The position numbers were made by a program, and so were the translations under genes. The notes under the pieces are model-generated. The model searched no databases. It saw nothing but the letters and a program-made list of their open reading frames with translations, and was not told the origin of the DNA. From a virus, in the IMG/VR virus record IMGVR_UViG_3300020442_002207, positions 1 to 27,489 of that record: DNA of 27,489 nucleotides; one strand, given 5' to 3'. The number at the start of each line of letters is the position of its first letter. The first letter of the stretch is position 1. Positions 22,308 through 27,485 of the stretch are shown here, piece after piece.

Positions 22308-22705
22308 TATCTTTTGCTTCCTGTGTATAAACCAAACCAAGCAGCACCTGCGCCTACTACTATGCTTATTAGCCCAGATTGTTCTAAAGTAGGATTTGCT
22401 AAGTCCATATACCATAGCACACTCTTATGCAATAATATAATATAGGTTAAGATAAAGATACGGGGAAAAATTCTCCAGCTATCTACAGCATGAGCTAAGT
22501 GTATCCATTTTGCATAAGGATTTATTCCTAAATCCTTGGCACTTGCATCTACCTCTAAATCTAATTTTACTCTTTTAGTTGCTCTTCCGTCCGTAGCAGG
22601 AACAGCAACTTGTTCGTCATATTTGTATTTGTCAAATCCAGTTTCAGTTGTGTTTTCAACTATATCAGTTTTTTCAGTCGCTGAGAGGGTTTTGGCCCGT
22701 GGCAT
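22307..22705 (-). CDS. Two-helix membrane protein, holin candidate
   Basis: 132 aa. A charged soluble N-terminal half of about 75 residues is followed by two hydrophobic segments, FPRIFILTYIILLHKSVLWY and GLISIVVGAGAAWFGLYTG, with a short polar turn between, ending SKR. Size, topology and position near lysis genes fit a class II-like holin, but many phage membrane proteins look the same. It overlaps the MscS-like gene by 32 bp at its start and the nuclease gene by the TAATG junction at its end. Confidence 0.55.
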   Translation of the reverse strand: MPRAKTLSATEKTDIVENTTETGFDKYKYDEQVAVPATDGRATKRVKLDLEVDASAKDLGINPYAKWIHLAHAVDSWRIFPRIFILTYIILLHKSVLWYMDLANPTLEQSGLISIVVGAGAAWFGLYTGSKR

Positions 22706-23153
22706 CTTTTGGTACCTCCAATGGTTTTTTGTAAGTTGTTTGAGCCTTTGCTATAAGCTCCATTATTTGTTGACCTTTTTCGATGTCTGTATCGAGATGT
22801 AGGTCTCTATGTACAATTTTTTCTAGTTTGTGAAATTCTAATTTTTCGTTTGGAACGTATTGCCAAGTATAACCTTTTTCAGTATATCTGCCAAATACAG
22901 TTTCCTTCATACCAATCTTAATAACCATAGCTTCGTGTCCGTCAAGGATAACTTGATCGCCTTCACGAAAGGTACCAGCATATTTGAAGGACATTCCAGC
23001 CACTAGATTTTGTGCAAACTCCTTAAACCAAAATACCGCTGCTATGCTTATAAGTATTGCTATCCAGGGTACAATCAAATCAGTCAAATGCATACCTAGC
23101 ATTTGGAAACTTTCTGCTTGTCCCATACCCTCTACTCTTGATGCTAAATCCAT
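22674..23153 (-). CDS. Miniature MscS-like mechanosensitive channel domain protein
   Basis: A 159-aa protein with one transmembrane helix (about 22-45, LTDLIVPWIAILISIAAVFW) running into KEFAQNLVAGMSF, which resembles the pore helix of MscS, followed by the beta-domain signature FREGDQVILDGHEAMVIKIG and QYVPNEKLEFHKLEKIV (MscS: FRAGEYVDLGGVAGTVLSV and VIPNGKIIAGNIINF). MscS has three helices and 286 aa, so this is a minimal version that could form rings or mix with host channels. Possible uses are osmotic control during lysis, holin-like pore formation, or exclusion of other phages; none is shown. It is the first gene after a GCTAAATA promoter with a GC-rich hairpin leader. Confidence 0.72.
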   Translation of the reverse strand: MDLASRVEGMGQAESFQMLGMHLTDLIVPWIAILISIAAVFWFKEFAQNLVAGMSFKYAGTFREGDQVILDGHEAMVIKIGMKETVFGRYTEKGYTWQYVPNEKLEFHKLEKIVHRDLHLDTDIEKGQQIMELIAKAQTTYKKPLEVPKDATGQNPLSD

Positions 23154-23170: not shown

Positions 23171-23182
23171 CGCCCTCGGGCG
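23171..23182 (-). promoter_or_regulatory. RNA hairpin at 5' end of MscS-like mRNA
   Basis: The minus strand folds as CGCC-CGAG-GGCG (perfect 4-bp GC stem with a tetraloop). Predicted transcription starts at 23184, so the stem begins at about +3. A similar layout precedes both plus-strand genes. Confidence 0.55.
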
Positions 23183-23189
23183 TACATAG

Positions 23190-23197
23190 TATTTAGC
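23190..23197 (-). promoter_or_regulatory. Late-type promoter candidate (GCTAAATA) for MscS-like gene
   Basis: Two mismatches from TATAAATA, keeping TAAATA. T4 geometry would start RNA at 23184, next to the hairpin. Position in the divergent intergenic region, ahead of the first minus-strand gene of this block, supports it. Confidence 0.4.
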
Positions 23198-23236
23198 GAT
23201 ACAAGTGTTACATAACTCTGATATCTTATGTAACAT

Positions 23237-23244
23237 AATAAATA
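23237..23244 (+). promoter_or_regulatory. T4-type late promoter candidate (AATAAATA), plus strand
   Basis: AATAAATATT reads toward the 75-aa gene at 23304. By T4 geometry (box at -13 to -6) RNA starts at 23250, the first base of the stem GTGGG of the hairpin that follows. Confidence 0.5.
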
Positions 23245-23247
23245 TTA

Positions 23248-23266
23248 AAGTGGGAGAAGCCCACTT
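23248..23266 (+). promoter_or_regulatory. RNA hairpin at 5' end of small membrane gene mRNA
   Basis: Perfect 7-bp stem (AAGTGGG / CCCACTT) with 5-base loop AGAAG. If RNA starts at 23250, the stem is 5 bp at the very 5' end, a form that protects mRNAs from 5'-end-dependent decay. Confidence 0.65.
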
Positions 23267-23267
23267 C

Positions 23268-23292
23268 AACAAACATGGATGTTTGTTTTTTT
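23268..23292 (+). terminator. Hairpin plus U-tract in leader (terminator-like, possible attenuator)
   Basis: AACAAACAT / ATGTTTGTT form an inverted repeat (23268-23287) followed by seven T's at 23286-23292, then directly the AAGGAG ribosome site. It looks like an intrinsic terminator, but there is no plus-strand gene upstream, so it would act on the leader itself. Confidence 0.55.
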
Positions 23293-23303
23293 AAGGAGAA
23301 AAT

Positions 23304-23531
23304 ATGGAAATTATTAACAAAGTATCTGGATGGGTACGTGGTGTCACGGAAGTGGCTTTAAGTGTATTAATGTTAGGAATTGTTGTACAGATCATTTTTG
23401 GTGCAAGTACAGTATTCTTACCATTTAATATCTTAGAAAATGTAATTGGTTTCGTATCAGCTCTTGGCAATCAAGGTTTGGTAGGATTAATTGCACTGTG
23501 GATTCTTTGGTCTATTTACAGTAAGAAATAA
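23304..23531 (+). CDS. Small two-helix membrane protein, 75 aa
   Basis: One of only two plus-strand genes. It has hydrophobic segments at about 16-38 (EVALSVLMLGIVVQIIFGAS) and 54-72 (LGNQGLVGLIALWILWSIY), with a short loop and a C-terminal YSKK. A strong AAGGAG sits 5 bases before the ATG. The leader carries a late-type promoter and two hairpins, and an intrinsic terminator follows the gene, so it is a self-contained transcription unit. Position between the holin-like/MscS-like genes and the spanin genes fits a holin, antiholin or other membrane lysis factor, but no family is recognised. Confidence 0.75.
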   Translation: MEIINKVSGWVRGVTEVALSVLMLGIVVQIIFGASTVFLPFNILENVIGFVSALGNQGLVGLIALWILWSIYSKK

Positions 23532-23551
23532 TCCAATTACGCACAGACGTG

Positions 23552-23580
23552 AGACTGGCCGTTCATTTGCCAGTCTTTTC
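23552..23580 (+). terminator. Intrinsic terminator after the plus-strand membrane gene
   Basis: Stem AGACTGGC / GCCAGTCT (8 bp, perfect) with a 9-base loop (CGTTCATTT), followed by TTTTCCTTTTCC. It lies 20 bases after the gene's stop and overlaps the end of the convergent spanin gene. No T-run on the minus strand, so it acts mainly on plus-strand RNA. Confidence 0.75.
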
Positions 23581-24003
23581 CTTTTCCTCATAATATTTTT
23601 TATATTGCGCTATTATTTCGTTTTGTTTGATTATGTATGCACGGATTTGTGCAAAGTTTTTGCTGAGAGTTTCGTAACCGTCATCTGTTAAACCGAACAA
23701 TACAACATCTGCATTTTTTCCTTTTAATTGTGCAAATACTTCTGCGTAATTATCTTCAGTTATTAATATCCAGTTTACTTTGCTCATTTCTACTGGGGCA
23801 GGTTTGTCTAAGTTGAGGGGAGTTTTTTCTATATACTTTGTTACTGTTTCTATTTTTTTAACAGGAGGAGGTGTAATGTCTTTTGTACAACTGTTTACAA
23901 AAAACAACACAGGTAATAATAATGCAAATGTTTTAATACTGTACAAATTTAGGATTTGCAATGCTAGTACATTCAGGATTGATCTGTGATTTTTTTGTTG
24001 CAT
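23563..24003 (-). CDS. Outer-membrane lipoprotein, o-spanin candidate
   Basis: 146 aa as drawn from ATG 24003. It contains a hydrophobic signal KTFALLLPVLFFVNSC with a plausible lipobox ending in cysteine 39, then a proline-rich linker (TPPPVKK) and a soluble helical domain (LSKNFAQIRAYIIKQNEIIA, KYYEEKEKTGK). Starting at TTG 23946 would give a normal 19-residue lipoprotein signal, MYSIKTFALLLPV in effect, and reduce the overlap with the upstream i-spanin gene to 14 bp. Overlapping i- and o-spanins are standard for the Rz/Rz1 pair that fuses inner and outer membranes at lysis. Longer than most o-spanins, so the role is probable rather than certain. Confidence 0.65.
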   Translation of the reverse strand: MQQKNHRSILNVLALQILNLYSIKTFALLLPVLFFVNSCTKDITPPPVKKIETVTKYIEKTPLNLDKPAPVEMSKVNWILITEDNYAEVFAQLKGKNADVVLFGLTDDGYETLSKNFAQIRAYIIKQNEIIAQYKKYYEEKEKTGK

Positions 24004-24445
24004 TTTTTTCTTCTTCTGTAAGCGGACTACCCATAGCTATTTCTACACATCTTAAAGCATTTGCACTTGCACGATTAATGATCTTTTCTATTGCTTTTGT
24101 CTTTTGTACTGCAAGATTACCGATATCTCGCTTTTCGCCACTTGCATTTATCTTGTTAAATTTTGTGTCAAGTGCTGCGTATTCTTTTACAAGTGTTTGA
24201 TTAACGTTTTCTAGTTTTTTATTTGCTGCTGTAATATCTTTAAAGTCTTTTTGTAATTGGTCTAACGCTTCTTGCTGTTTACCTATTTCACCTTCTAACA
24301 ACTGTGAGTTTGCTTCAGATGTTGCGAGGTTAGCTTTTGTTTGTTCTAAATTTACTCGTAATTCTAGTACATAATCATAGGCTGCAAATCCTGCAAGGAC
24401 TACAAGTCCAATTAATCCAAATTTAATTGCAGCAAAGATACCCAT
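23933..24445 (-). CDS. Inner-membrane coiled-coil protein, i-spanin candidate
   Basis: 170 aa with a single N-terminal membrane anchor (IKFGLIGLVVLAGFAAYDYV), then a long coiled coil (about 30-100, LRVNLEQTKANLATSEANSQ, LDQLQKDFKDITAANKKLEN) in the periplasm and a C-terminal part with two cysteines (RCVEIAMG, NPECTS). This is the Rz-type layout. It lies 2 bp after the endolysin gene and overlaps the lipoprotein gene, together making a lysis cassette. Confidence 0.7.
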   Translation of the reverse strand: MGIFAAIKFGLIGLVVLAGFAAYDYVLELRVNLEQTKANLATSEANSQLLEGEIGKQQEALDQLQKDFKDITAANKKLENVNQTLVKEYAALDTKFNKINASGEKRDIGNLAVQKTKAIEKIINRASANALRCVEIAMGSPLTEEEKNATKKSQINPECTSIANPKFVQY

Positions 24446-24447
24446 TA

Positions 24448-25299
24448 TTAACCTAGCATTGCTTTGATAGTCTTAGGCCCAACTATACCATCTGGATAAA
24501 GACCATGATGTTCTTGCCAAAGTTTTACTATTGATTCTGTTCCATATCCGAATATACCATCAGCTGGATTAATATCTAATTTTTCTTGTATCTCTGTAAC
24601 TAAAGGACCTCTTGAACCGACTTTAACAACTTGATTATAATTTATTTCATATTCTTCATAATCTCCGCCTAAAACATCTAGTGCGTGTAACCAATGTTTT
24701 TTCCTGTCTTGGTAGCCTATTGTTCCACCGTTTATGCGCTTAGACATTCCTAGTATATCTTGTTCGTCACAATAGCGATTTATATTATTAGTGTCCCAGA
24801 ACCAACATGCACTATCTAAAGCACCTTTTTTTGTCCTTACATAATTAACACTATCATCTACAGTAATATCCATTTCTTTTGAAAATGCTGTATAGTTATT
24901 ACAACCTGTTAGTTGTAATATGCCACCTCCTCTATATTTCCAGCCATCACCACTAGTTTCGTCTCCGTTGCCCATCCGGTTAGCGTATATAACATTTGCA
25001 ATTCGTTCAGGTTGTCTATGATAATCTTTGGCATCTTTGCCTGCACGGACGAAATATTTTGGAAAGATGCGATTAAGTGCGGCTGCTGAGTAGTTTAGAT
25101 TTTCAGTCAGTATAGCAAAGTTACGCGATTCGTGACCACATTGAGCAATAAATCCTGCTACACGATCAATAGTGTTTATTTCCCAGAGTGGCAAAATCTC
25201 ACACATTGCATTATACCAATTATTCCATTCAATATTTCCATGTAACAATTCTTTTACCATTGGTGGTTCAAATGCAAATTTAAAATCTGATTTTGCCAT
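24448..25299 (-). CDS. Endolysin: GH19 lysozyme/chitinase-like plus peptidoglycan-binding domain
   Basis: 283-aa muralytic enzyme. The GH19 catalytic domain (about 15-215) contains FIAQCGHESRNFAILTENL, with candidate catalytic glutamates E57 and E66, then WKYRGGGILQLTGCNNY (GH19 signature) and a substrate-cleft segment MSKRINGGTIGYQDRKKHW. A C-terminal PG_binding_1-like repeat (about 225-282) contains GSRGPLVTEIQEKLDI, ADGIFGYGTE and DGIVGPKT. No signal peptide, so it needs a holin. AGGAG lies 8 bases before the ATG. Spanin genes follow directly, confirming a lysis unit. Confidence 0.9.
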   Translation of the reverse strand: MAKSDFKFAFEPPMVKELLHGNIEWNNWYNAMCEILPLWEINTIDRVAGFIAQCGHESRNFAILTENLNYSAAALNRIFPKYFVRAGKDAKDYHRQPERIANVIYANRMGNGDETSGDGWKYRGGGILQLTGCNNYTAFSKEMDITVDDSVNYVRTKKGALDSACWFWDTNNINRYCDEQDILGMSKRINGGTIGYQDRKKHWLHALDVLGGDYEEYEINYNQVVKVGSRGPLVTEIQEKLDINPADGIFGYGTESIVKLWQEHHGLYPDGIVGPKTIKAMLG

Positions 25300-25309
25300 T
25301 ATGTTCTCC

Positions 25310-26026
25310 TTAAGATATACGTTCTACAACTAAAGTTTTTCCTTTATTTTCTAAGGTAAGTTTATTACCATATTTTGTTATATTATAATCACCAATATAT
25401 TTTGATAGATATATAATTTCTGCAAAATCCCAAGGATTAAAACTTTCTGCTAATCTATCAAATACATCTTGTTTGTTGCCAAAGTCTAAAAATCGTAGTT
25501 GTAACTTTTCTGTGTGTGGTTTTTGTAATATAATTGTTTCACTTAGCATTTCTATACTATCACAGTAACTGTTACTAAAGAAATGCTTATAATTTTCCAT
25601 TGTTGTTTGTTCTAATTTTACACTGTAATCATCAGCACTTGTTGGTATTGTTTCTGTAAGAGCTTCAAGTGTTGCTTCTTTGCTGTTAAAGTTTTTATAA
25701 TAGCGGAATTTTAAATTATTTACTCCGCTTATTTTTTTAACACCATCTAGCATTTCAAATAAATTGTCACCTATATGGCGATCTCTTTCAATTTCTACAA
25801 AAACTTTATAATTACCGTCTTGCAGTTCACCTGCTGAAACGTCTGCATCGAGTATAAAACTGTAGCCACTTTCTAAAAATTTCACAAGATCTTCTGCAGG
25901 TGCTTTATCTTTCATTGTAAAACTTACAACTACAATGTCTTGATCTTCTCCCATTTTACTGCTGTATGAATCCACTTCAAAAATATCATACATCATGTAT
26001 TTTAAGTCATGCTTATGTAAACTCAT
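25310..26026 (-). CDS. Hypothetical protein, 238 aa
   Basis: Unknown, although its style resembles proteins kept in marine T4-like phages. It has regular strand/helix alternation: KMGEDQDIVVVSFTMKDKAP, then EDLVKFLESGYSFIL, then GNYKVFVEIERDRHIGDNLF, and a C-terminal half with LQLRFLDFGNKQDVFDRLAE and a final KYGNKLTLENKGKTLVVERI. No membrane segment, cysteine cluster or catalytic motif. Its start forms a TAATG overlap with the 197-aa gene, so the two are coupled. It precedes the endolysin by 10 bp. Confidence 0.7.
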   Translation of the reverse strand: MSLHKHDLKYMMYDIFEVDSYSSKMGEDQDIVVVSFTMKDKAPAEDLVKFLESGYSFILDADVSAGELQDGNYKVFVEIERDRHIGDNLFEMLDGVKKISGVNNLKFRYYKNFNSKEATLEALTETIPTSADDYSVKLEQTTMENYKHFFSNSYCDSIEMLSETIILQKPHTEKLQLRFLDFGNKQDVFDRLAESFNPWDFAEIIYLSKYIGDYNITKYGNKLTLENKGKTLVVERIS

Positions 26027-26619
26027 TATACTGCTCCTGCTGGTGCTGCTCCAGCCTCAGGTGGTGCTGCTCCAGCCTCAGGTGGTGCTGCTCCTCCCAT
26101 ATCCATTTCTTCTGGCATTCCTCCTGCTGCTAGGTCATCTGCTGGTTGTGTAGTTCCAGGTGCTGTTGCTTCTGTAGCAGGATCAGTAATCCAATCCCAT
26201 TTTTCTTTGTAGCCGCCGTATATATCTGCAAGTAGTTTTTTTGGCATCATAATACTGACTATCCATATAGGATGGCGATCAAGTTTTCCTTTTTTTGTTC
26301 CTGGTCGCATGTCATCTGGTTTACGTATTTTCCTTGGTTTGATTAAATGGGTTTTTTGATATGTTATTTTGCAATCATAATCTATTAATCTTTTACCGCC
26401 CATTGGATCTGGCATCTTATTTCTATCCCAGAAAAATTTGCAAGTTACCCAGTGTCTATCTATAATAGGGCCTTCGGCTAATTCTCCATCTTCCCAATTA
26501 TCGTAAACATATAAATCTAGTTCATCTAGTACACGTTCAAAATCTTTTAGGATTTTGAAACCTGTATTACTTTCGTATATTTTTTCTACATTTTTTATAA
26601 CGTCATAAATGTCTTGCAT
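26026..26619 (-). CDS. Hypothetical protein with Pro/Ala-rich tail, 197 aa
   Basis: Unknown. The first ~140 residues are folded (DIYDVIKNVEKIY, ILKDFERVLDELDLYVYDNW, then RHPIWIVSIMMPKKLLADIY). The remainder is a disordered tail of Ala, Pro, Gly and Glu with a 7-residue repeat (PPEAGAA). Such tails often tether virion proteins. The ATG at 26619 follows two overlapping late-type boxes, so it heads the minus-strand unit that runs into the endolysin. Identity cannot be assigned. Confidence 0.7.
   Translation of the reverse strand: MQDIYDVIKNVEKIYESNTGFKILKDFERVLDELDLYVYDNWEDGELAEGPIIDRHWVTCKFFWDRNKMPDPMGGKRLIDYDCKITYQKTHLIKPRKIRKPDDMRPGTKKGKLDRHPIWIVSIMMPKKLLADIYGGYKEKWDWITDPATEATAPGTTQPADDLAAGGMPEEMDMGGAAPPEAGAAPPEAGAAPAGAV
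26042..26094 (-). repeat. 21-bp tandem repeat coding PPEAGAA units
   Basis: A 21-bp unit (plus strand GGTGCTGCTCCAGCCTCAG plus two bases) occurs twice exactly and once in part. It codes the Ala/Pro tail of the 197-aa protein. The perfect copies suggest recent slippage and likely length variation among relatives. Confidence 0.8.
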
Positions 26620-26633
26620 TTTAGGTAATCCTA

Positions 26634-26654
26634 TATTTATTATAATTATTTATC
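26634..26654 (-). promoter_or_regulatory. Pair of late-type promoter boxes, minus strand
   Basis: GATAAATA (26654-26647) and AATAAATA (26641-26634) both face the 197-aa gene. Starts would be near 26641 and 26628. They lie back-to-back with the plus-strand phoH promoter in the divergent region. Confidence 0.45.
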
Positions 26655-26688
26655 GTATTTTGTGGTAACTTTACCGTTAAAAGGTGTT

Positions 26689-26696
26689 GATAAATA
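26689..26696 (+). promoter_or_regulatory. T4-type late promoter candidate (GATAAATA) for phoH
   Basis: GATAAATATTTG on the plus strand places the predicted start at 26702, one base before the stem of the leader hairpin. Same layout as the other plus-strand gene. Confidence 0.5.
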
Positions 26697-26702
26697 TTTG
26701 TG

Positions 26703-26740
26703 TAGGGCAAAAGCCTTACTGGAAAGGTTATGCCCTATTT
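26703..26740 (+). promoter_or_regulatory. Long RNA hairpin at 5' end of phoH mRNA
   Basis: Outer stem TAGGGCA / TGCCCTA (7 bp, perfect) encloses an inner stem AGCCTT / AAGGTT (one G-U pair) with a small loop, followed by TTTT. The stem begins at the predicted +2. It may shield the mRNA or act as a terminator-like switch; the ribosome site lies 10 bases after it. Confidence 0.65.
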
Positions 26741-26762
26741 TATCCATATAAGGAGGAACTTA

Positions 26763-27485
26763 ATGGGTGCAAGACGTTCGGCTCGCAAGCCGAGATATGA
26801 AGAAGCAACTAATAACGTTGTTGAATTTGATGCATATAAGAAAAAGCGTCAAGTTAGAGTCCTACCACGTAATAAAAATCAAGAAACTTACATGTTAAAA
26901 TTGCTAGATAAAGATAAAGACATCGTCTTTGGAATAGGTCCAGCTGGTACAGGTAAAACATTGTTAGCAGTCCAAATCGCTGTAAAACTGTTTAAGGAAG
27001 GTGAGGTTGAAAAAATTATTGTTACTCGTCCTGCAGTTAGCGTAGATGAAGACTTAGGATTTTTACCAGGAACGCTAGAGCAAAAGATGGCTCCATGGAC
27101 ACGCCCTATATTCGATGTTATAAGAGAATATTTCACTGCCAGAGAAATAACTATGATGATTGATGAAGGCATTATAGAAATAGCTCCACTAGCTTACATG
27201 AGAGGACGAACATTTAAGAACAGTTTTATCCTAGCAGATGAAATGCAGAATGCAACACCTAATCAGATGAAGATGTTATTAACACGCATTGGTGAGGGTT
27301 CTAAGATGGTTGTTACTGGGGATTTAGCACAGGCAGATAGACTTACAGACAATGGTTTAGTGTCATTCATTCGACATTTGTACACTCGTGATTTAACCCG
27401 ATTAGATATTGTTAACTTTGAGCATCGTGACATTGAACGTCACGAAGCAGTAAAAGAAGTACTAGAAATCTACGGAGACGAATAA
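26763..27485 (+). CDS. phoH: PhoH-like ATPase
   Basis: 240-aa P-loop protein of the PhoH family, common in marine phages. Motifs are Walker A GIGPAGTGKTLLA, VTRPAVSVDEDLGFLPGTLE, AYMRGRTFKNSFILADEMQN (Walker B, ADEMQN), LLTRIGEGSKMVVTGD and a C-terminal FEHRDIERHEAVKEVLEIY. The phage version is shorter than E. coli PhoH (354 aa) but has the whole ATPase. The frame is open from 26730, but ATG 26763 is chosen: AGGAGG sits 6 bases before it, and 26730 lies inside the leader hairpin. It has its own promoter and divergent orientation. The link to phosphate stress is often assumed and is not shown by this sequence. Confidence 0.95.
   Translation: MGARRSARKPRYEEATNNVVEFDAYKKKRQVRVLPRNKNQETYMLKLLDKDKDIVFGIGPAGTGKTLLAVQIAVKLFKEGEVEKIIVTRPAVSVDEDLGFLPGTLEQKMAPWTRPIFDVIREYFTAREITMMIDEGIIEIAPLAYMRGRTFKNSFILADEMQNATPNQMKMLLTRIGEGSKMVVTGDLAQADRLTDNGLVSFIRHLYTRDLTRLDIVNFEHRDIERHEAVKEVLEIYGDE

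Follow-up and report, generated by a model that had tools for sequence, protein, structure and literature searches.

A phoH leader RNA that is probably joined to a T4-type late promoter, and the two partners of its 5' strand, in a 27,489-base virus record

The 27,489-base virus record IMGVR_UViG_3300020442_002207, which is the window analyzed here, carries a T4-like gene set according to profile matches of its proteins, and a late-type promoter box stands directly before a potential hairpin upstream of its phoH gene. This locus raises the question of whether the hairpin is an RNA structure at the very start of a late transcript, and what such a structure would do for phoH. The original prediction described three promoters, at 26689, at 23237, and at 23197 on the minus strand, with a shared layout of a box followed by a hairpin at the transcription start (+1). 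All box and hairpin positions are exact, and each stem starts 0–3 bases from +1 if +1 is taken as base 5–6 past TAAATA. At phoH the layout goes far beyond chance, and 26689–26771 is read, with a probability of about 0.6, as a T4-type late promoter coupled to a phoH leader RNA that acts in cis and controls the message after transcription. The sequence support for this reading covers the box, its conserved spacing, pairing at the RNA level, phoH specificity, start-codon pairing, and the covariation of both alternative partners of the 5' strand. The phoH features are as follows.

26689..26696, plus strand: late-type promoter box GATAAATA of phoH, read from the sequence and conserved upstream of phoH in relatives
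26702..26738, plus strand: hairpin I, in which GTAGGGCA (26702–26709) pairs with TGCCCTAT (26731–26738) and an inner stem joins 26712–26717 with 26724–26729, from folding, shuffles, and covariation
26713..26719, plus strand: proximal strand GCCTTAC, the alternative partner of GTAGGGC (compact hairpin 26702–26719), complementary to the 5' strand at 7/7 positions, the second complement being conserved in relatives
26741..26769, plus strand: hairpin II, whose 5' arm TATCCAT faces ATGGGTG, with the start codon in the stem and AAGGAGG in the inner stem and loop, from folding and shuffles
26750..26756, plus strand: Shine-Dalgarno (SD) sequence AAGGAGG of phoH, read from the sequence
26763..27485, plus strand: phoH, 240 amino acids (aa), Pfam PhoH, E 7e-74

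The open reading frame listed from 26730 would start inside hairpin I, and the SD sequence indicates 26763 as the start of phoH. The comparison set consisted of 80 viral loci encoding PhoH relatives at 73–99% identity, on contigs of up to 358 kb, which gave 57 distinct phoH leaders after the removal of identical copies. The box upstream of phoH is TAAATA in 56 of these leaders and TAAGTA in one, and nearly all loci share the order TAAATA, 4–5 bases, GTA[A/G], hairpin, SD, and ATGGG or ATGAG. The distance from the box to GUA[A/G] is 5 bases in 48 leaders and 4 bases in 9, and relative to the predicted +1, placed at base 5–6 after TAAATA, the stem stands within a few bases of the 5' end in 57/57. 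Promoter statistics were obtained from four related genomes (G001–G004, loci L082–L134; 1.05 Mb), where 20–26% of TAAATA sites lie in gaps before genes, compared with 2–15% for other AT-rich hexamers. The distance from TAAATA to ATG peaks at 4 bases (20 genes) and 5 bases (38 genes), with 0–2 genes at neighboring distances. The simplest reading of these 58 genes is that their late messenger RNAs (mRNAs) would have no leader and that +1 would be base 5 or 6. Because the phoH stem begins at the two positions of this ATG peak, a phoH hairpin at +1 is supported, not proven, and transcription of phoH is predicted to start at G26702, the first base of hairpin I.

In T4 late promoters (gp55/gp33/gp45), a TATA-type box sits roughly one turn of the helix upstream of the start (PMC2988020). 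The phoH promoter resembles them in its TAAATA core and in a conserved TATAAATA-like box at a fitting distance from a start that is itself predicted, from the ATG peak at bases 5–6. Moreover, a gp55-like late sigma factor is encoded in two related records that carry the phoH leader, G003 and G005 (phrog_12791, E ~1e-78). T4, in contrast, has no TAAATANNNNATG site, whereas many late genes of these phages place ATG at the predicted +1. TAAATA is not over-represented in the window (52 copies against 63 expected), and three of its six promoter-like sites are without a comparable hairpin.

Folding of the related phoH leaders gives two hairpins in most of them. Hairpin I has a mean shuffle z of about -4.0 over 53 leaders, and its inner stem alone reaches -3.3. 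After realignment of the leaders with a covariance model, 21 cells of the outer stem are changed on both sides, against 5.1 in shuffles (0/500 reach it), and this covariation signal vanishes when the partner strand is slid. The stem cells contain 41 G-U pairs and 1 A-C, which argues for selection on the sense-strand phoH RNA and not on the DNA or the opposite strand. Judged from these comparisons, hairpin I is an RNA structure of the phoH mRNA, far beyond chance. A DNA-level inverted repeat acting as an operator, or a chance structure in AT-rich gaps, is ruled out for phoH by the same covariation, shuffle z, and G-U to A-C asymmetry; as a general account of the boxes and their hairpins it is scarcely credible, even though an inverted repeat beside a promoter frequently serves as an operator, and it keeps a place only for the hairpin at 23182, which is no better than chance.

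The 5' strand of stem I is conserved beyond pairing needs, changes falling mostly on the 3' strand, and both GUAGGGC and the loop YYUAC are conserved in phoH leaders. A covariance-model search of 1.07 Mb matched four phoH leaders only, and a general late-gene leader is thus rejected. The phoH genes of cyanophage, Vibrio, Klebsiella, Salicola, Agrobacterium, and Sinorhizobium phages are without this leader, with TAAATA upstream in the last three. In PA5oct-like phages of Pseudomonas strain PAO1, TAAATA-ACAA and a hairpin do precede phoH, but a TATAAT stands ~8 bases before the box. The Rfam search of the window gave no family match, and no description of a phoH leader was found in the literature searched; as an RNA element the phoH leader is new, while its general kind is known.

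The original prediction did not include two features of this leader, namely an alternative partner of the 5' strand and a hairpin over the start codon. In 47 of the 57 leaders, the opening seven bases of hairpin I find at least two downstream complements, counted at 6 or more of 7 positions; with the remainder of the leader shuffled, the figure is 12.3 (maximum 19). The complements in the window lie at 26713–26719, in the inner loop region, and at 26732–26738, in the outer 3' strand. Both partners tend to track the lineage-specific 5' strand: with each of the 12 distinct 5' strands represented by a single leader and the strands dealt out at random, p is 0.0007 for the proximal and less than 1 in 2000 for the distal strand; the energies with own and with consensus 5' strand gave no significant difference. 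The compact and extended pairings are mutually exclusive, the first base is paired in both, and the extended form is the more stable in 36 of 45 leaders, by ~3 kcal on average. Hairpin I therefore looks bistable on paper, with its 5' end closed in either state.

In hairpin II, the sequences before the SD (ATCCAT, ACTCAT, TTCCAT, and others) complement ATGGGT or ATGGGA and place the start codon in a stem. Its shuffle z of -0.95 (p 2e-12) is weaker than that of hairpin I, and complementarity counts alone (48/57 against 41 in shuffles) did not discriminate, whereas the energy test did. The predicted exposure of the phoH AUG is 27% unpaired, compared with 45–49% in other late leaders at 30–37 °C, and the predicted exposure of SD and AUG stays flat from 10 to 42 °C.

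Decay of mRNA in bacteria can depend on the 5' end, and this is the basis on which protection by the phoH leader is proposed. The late phoH transcript would begin at G26702, and its 5' end would lie within hairpin I from the first base. Once ~18 nucleotides (nt) are made, GUAGGGC could pair with the proximal strand in the compact form, or later with the distal strand in the extended and usually more stable form. The buried 5' end would slow 5'-dependent decay of the phoH message, and phoH translation would be set or gated by hairpin II, perhaps with a contribution from hairpin I. We infer the actual +1, the slowed decay, the translational effect, and any driving of the switch by a protein, whether PhoH or another. 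The very stable late mRNA of the original prediction fits this anatomy. A further step, put forward tentatively, is that the leader is a bistable switch at the 5' end of the late mRNA, in which the 5' strand alternates between its two conserved partners and the choice, made by co-transcriptional folding or a bound protein, controls phoH expression.

The strongest rival, at somewhat less than even odds, is that the leader is a 5'-end stabilizer and nothing else, in which a hairpin at +1, of almost any sequence, shields the late mRNA against 5'-dependent decay. Leaders such as those of E. coli ompA and T7 gene 10 carry stabilizing stem-loops at the 5' terminus of the mRNA, and the phoH leader resembles them in having its stem at or next to the first transcript base. 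The strict spacing from box to stem, the location of the predicted +1 base within a stem in both states, the enrichment of hairpins at +1 in other long late leaders, with no excess ten bases further on, and the hsp20 leaders that likewise begin with a hairpin all suit such a stabilizer. In contrast to ompA and T7 gene 10, however, the phoH leader has a conserved sequence, a start-codon hairpin, and an alternative partner; conservation of the 5' strand beyond pairing needs and confinement of the element to phoH speak against a mere stabilizer, which also leaves hairpin II and the proximal partner unaccounted for. A translational operator recognized by a protein, such as PhoH in autoregulation, would explain the phoH-specific element, the conserved GUAGGGC and loop YYUAC, and the start codon within a hairpin. 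It has precedents in T4, where autoregulatory RNA structures lie upstream of genes 43 and 32 (PMC3014915), and would in principle resemble the autocontrol of gp32 and gp43. In contrast to these T4 operators, the phoH leader occupies the 5' terminus of a predicted late transcript and stands before a different gene, and its protein partner, its binding, and any RNA binding by phage PhoH are hypothetical; the operator is thus considered rather unlikely.

An RNA thermometer, as proposed below for hsp20 in related phages, shares with the phoH leader a layout of two hairpins with the start region in the second, as in ROSE_3 (RF02523), and the hsp20 leaders of related phages match this Rfam family below its cut-off. 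However, the phoH leader has no ROSE or other Rfam match and no predicted temperature response, its SD and AUG exposure being flat, and a phoH thermometer is not supported and very improbable. In the T4 gene e and I-TevI leaders, too, a late promoter adjoins an RNA hairpin close to the ribosome binding site (RBS), and transcripts from the late start lack the 5' half of this inhibitory hairpin (PMC3014915). Such relief of a read-through hairpin was rejected for phoH, where the whole of hairpin I starts at or past the predicted +1 and the gene upstream points the other way.

Several points weigh against the preferred reading of a late promoter joined to a controlling leader RNA. The start at G26702 is a prediction from sequence. 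The alignment A2 was fitted to the stem-I structure and is thus biased in its favor. The gp55 protein was not found in four other records, which may be fragments. RBS exposure is similar in the compact and extended forms (SD 0.41 and 0.51 unpaired, AUG 0.35 and 0.29, respectively), and this small difference does not predict a strong translation switch. Moreover, the two-state form is not universal, as L007 and L054 have the compact hairpin only and L045 has a shortened leader.

The phoH gene is among the commonest phage genes, with 3,439 of 50,697 phage records matching this protein, while what it does during infection is little understood; a gene-specific leader at the predicted start of its late transcript offers a direct handle on the timing and mode of its control. 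In a large group of water-dwelling giant phages, a conserved hairpin with two-way pairing at the predicted start of the late phoH mRNA suggests a built-in control of message lifetime or translation. The results also suggest that T4-type late promoters occur in giant phages in at least three forms, with no leader, with a short leader, and with a long leader that begins with a hairpin.

The wider occurrence of the layout was assessed at late-type promoters with leaders of at least 40 nt, counting hairpins below -8 kcal that start at bases 4–7, with 395 hexamer sites as controls. Such hairpins occur in 15 of 55 long leaders and 25 of 395 controls (Fisher p 1e-5). The 15 include a phoH leader, L029, that the filter did not catch; without phoH the count is 14/54, about four times the control frequency. 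The TAAATA-plus-hairpin pattern expected genome-wide is thus enriched at long leaders, but at most TAAATA promoters the leader is short and has no hairpin, at many the ATG stands 4–5 bases past the box, and a general late-gene design does not hold. Some leaders with a hairpin at +1 precede orthologous genes in different genomes. Two more groups of such leaders, alike between genomes, lie before a secreted repeat-rich protein (L102:10858, plus; L133:17874, reverse-strand coordinate; L090:3084, reverse) and before a ~318-aa membrane protein (L092:9684, reverse; L100:12669, plus).

The clearest recurrence of the layout is before hsp20 in relatives, where a hairpin of at most -6 kcal starts at bases 4–9 past the box in 48 of 52 distinct leaders. 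In these leaders (L152–L231, hsp20 start at locus position 1001), the late-type box and the hairpin at +1 are followed by UCUUGCUU facing AAGGAGA. Four of five tested leaders match Rfam ROSE_3 at E 0.001–0.03, below the cut-off, and the hsp20 leader looks like a phage-borne heat-sensing (ROSE-like thermometer) leader directly behind a putative late promoter. The gp32 leaders (L232–L311) were rejected as a further example of the layout: their promoter is sigma-70-like, of the TTGACA-TATAAT type, its -10 is overlapped by a conserved inverted repeat, and the TAAATA that some of them carry falls within its spacer. The arrangement looks like an operator or a dual promoter.

The remaining two promoters of the original prediction are divergent and have the following features.

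23237..23244, plus strand: late-type box AATAAATA before the gene of a 75-aa membrane protein, read from the sequence
23248..23266, plus strand: perfect 7-bp hairpin AAGTGGG-AGAAG-CCCACTT (arms 23248–23254/23260–23266), from folding
23268..23292, plus strand: second hairpin AACAAACA-TGGA-TGTTTGTT, then a T run, directly before the SD, from folding
23304..23531, plus strand: putative membrane protein, 75 aa, adjoining the lysis genes and without a family match
23190..23197, minus strand: late-type box GCTAAATA of the MscS-like gene, read from the sequence and conserved in L135–L139
23171..23182, minus strand: weak 4-bp hairpin CGCC-CGAG-GGCG, from folding
22674..23153, minus strand: MscS-like protein, 159 aa, Pfam MS_channel_2nd, E 1e-4

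The hairpin at 23248 alone is a ~1-in-16 event, given that -8 kcal is attained at 25 of the 395 control sites. Six close relatives lack the 75-aa gene that follows, no homologue of it was detected, and the hairpin at the 23237 promoter is no more than suggestive. Downstream of the 23248 hairpin and ahead of the SD for the 75-aa protein, the terminator-like hairpin with its T run (23268–23292, plus) might serve as an attenuator. On the minus strand, the 23182 hairpin (-5.5 kcal) is weak and not beyond chance in the window. It is kept in five close relatives, but this conservation carries little information because the adjoining gene is 85–88% identical.

Besides phoH, the gene set of the window includes a family B DNA polymerase, ClpB-like and DnaJ proteins, virion proteins, and a lysis cassette of an endolysin and two Rz-like spanins. 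The phage gene at 22674–23153 (minus), with its match to the MscS beta-domain of mechanosensitive channels, adjoins this lysis cassette.

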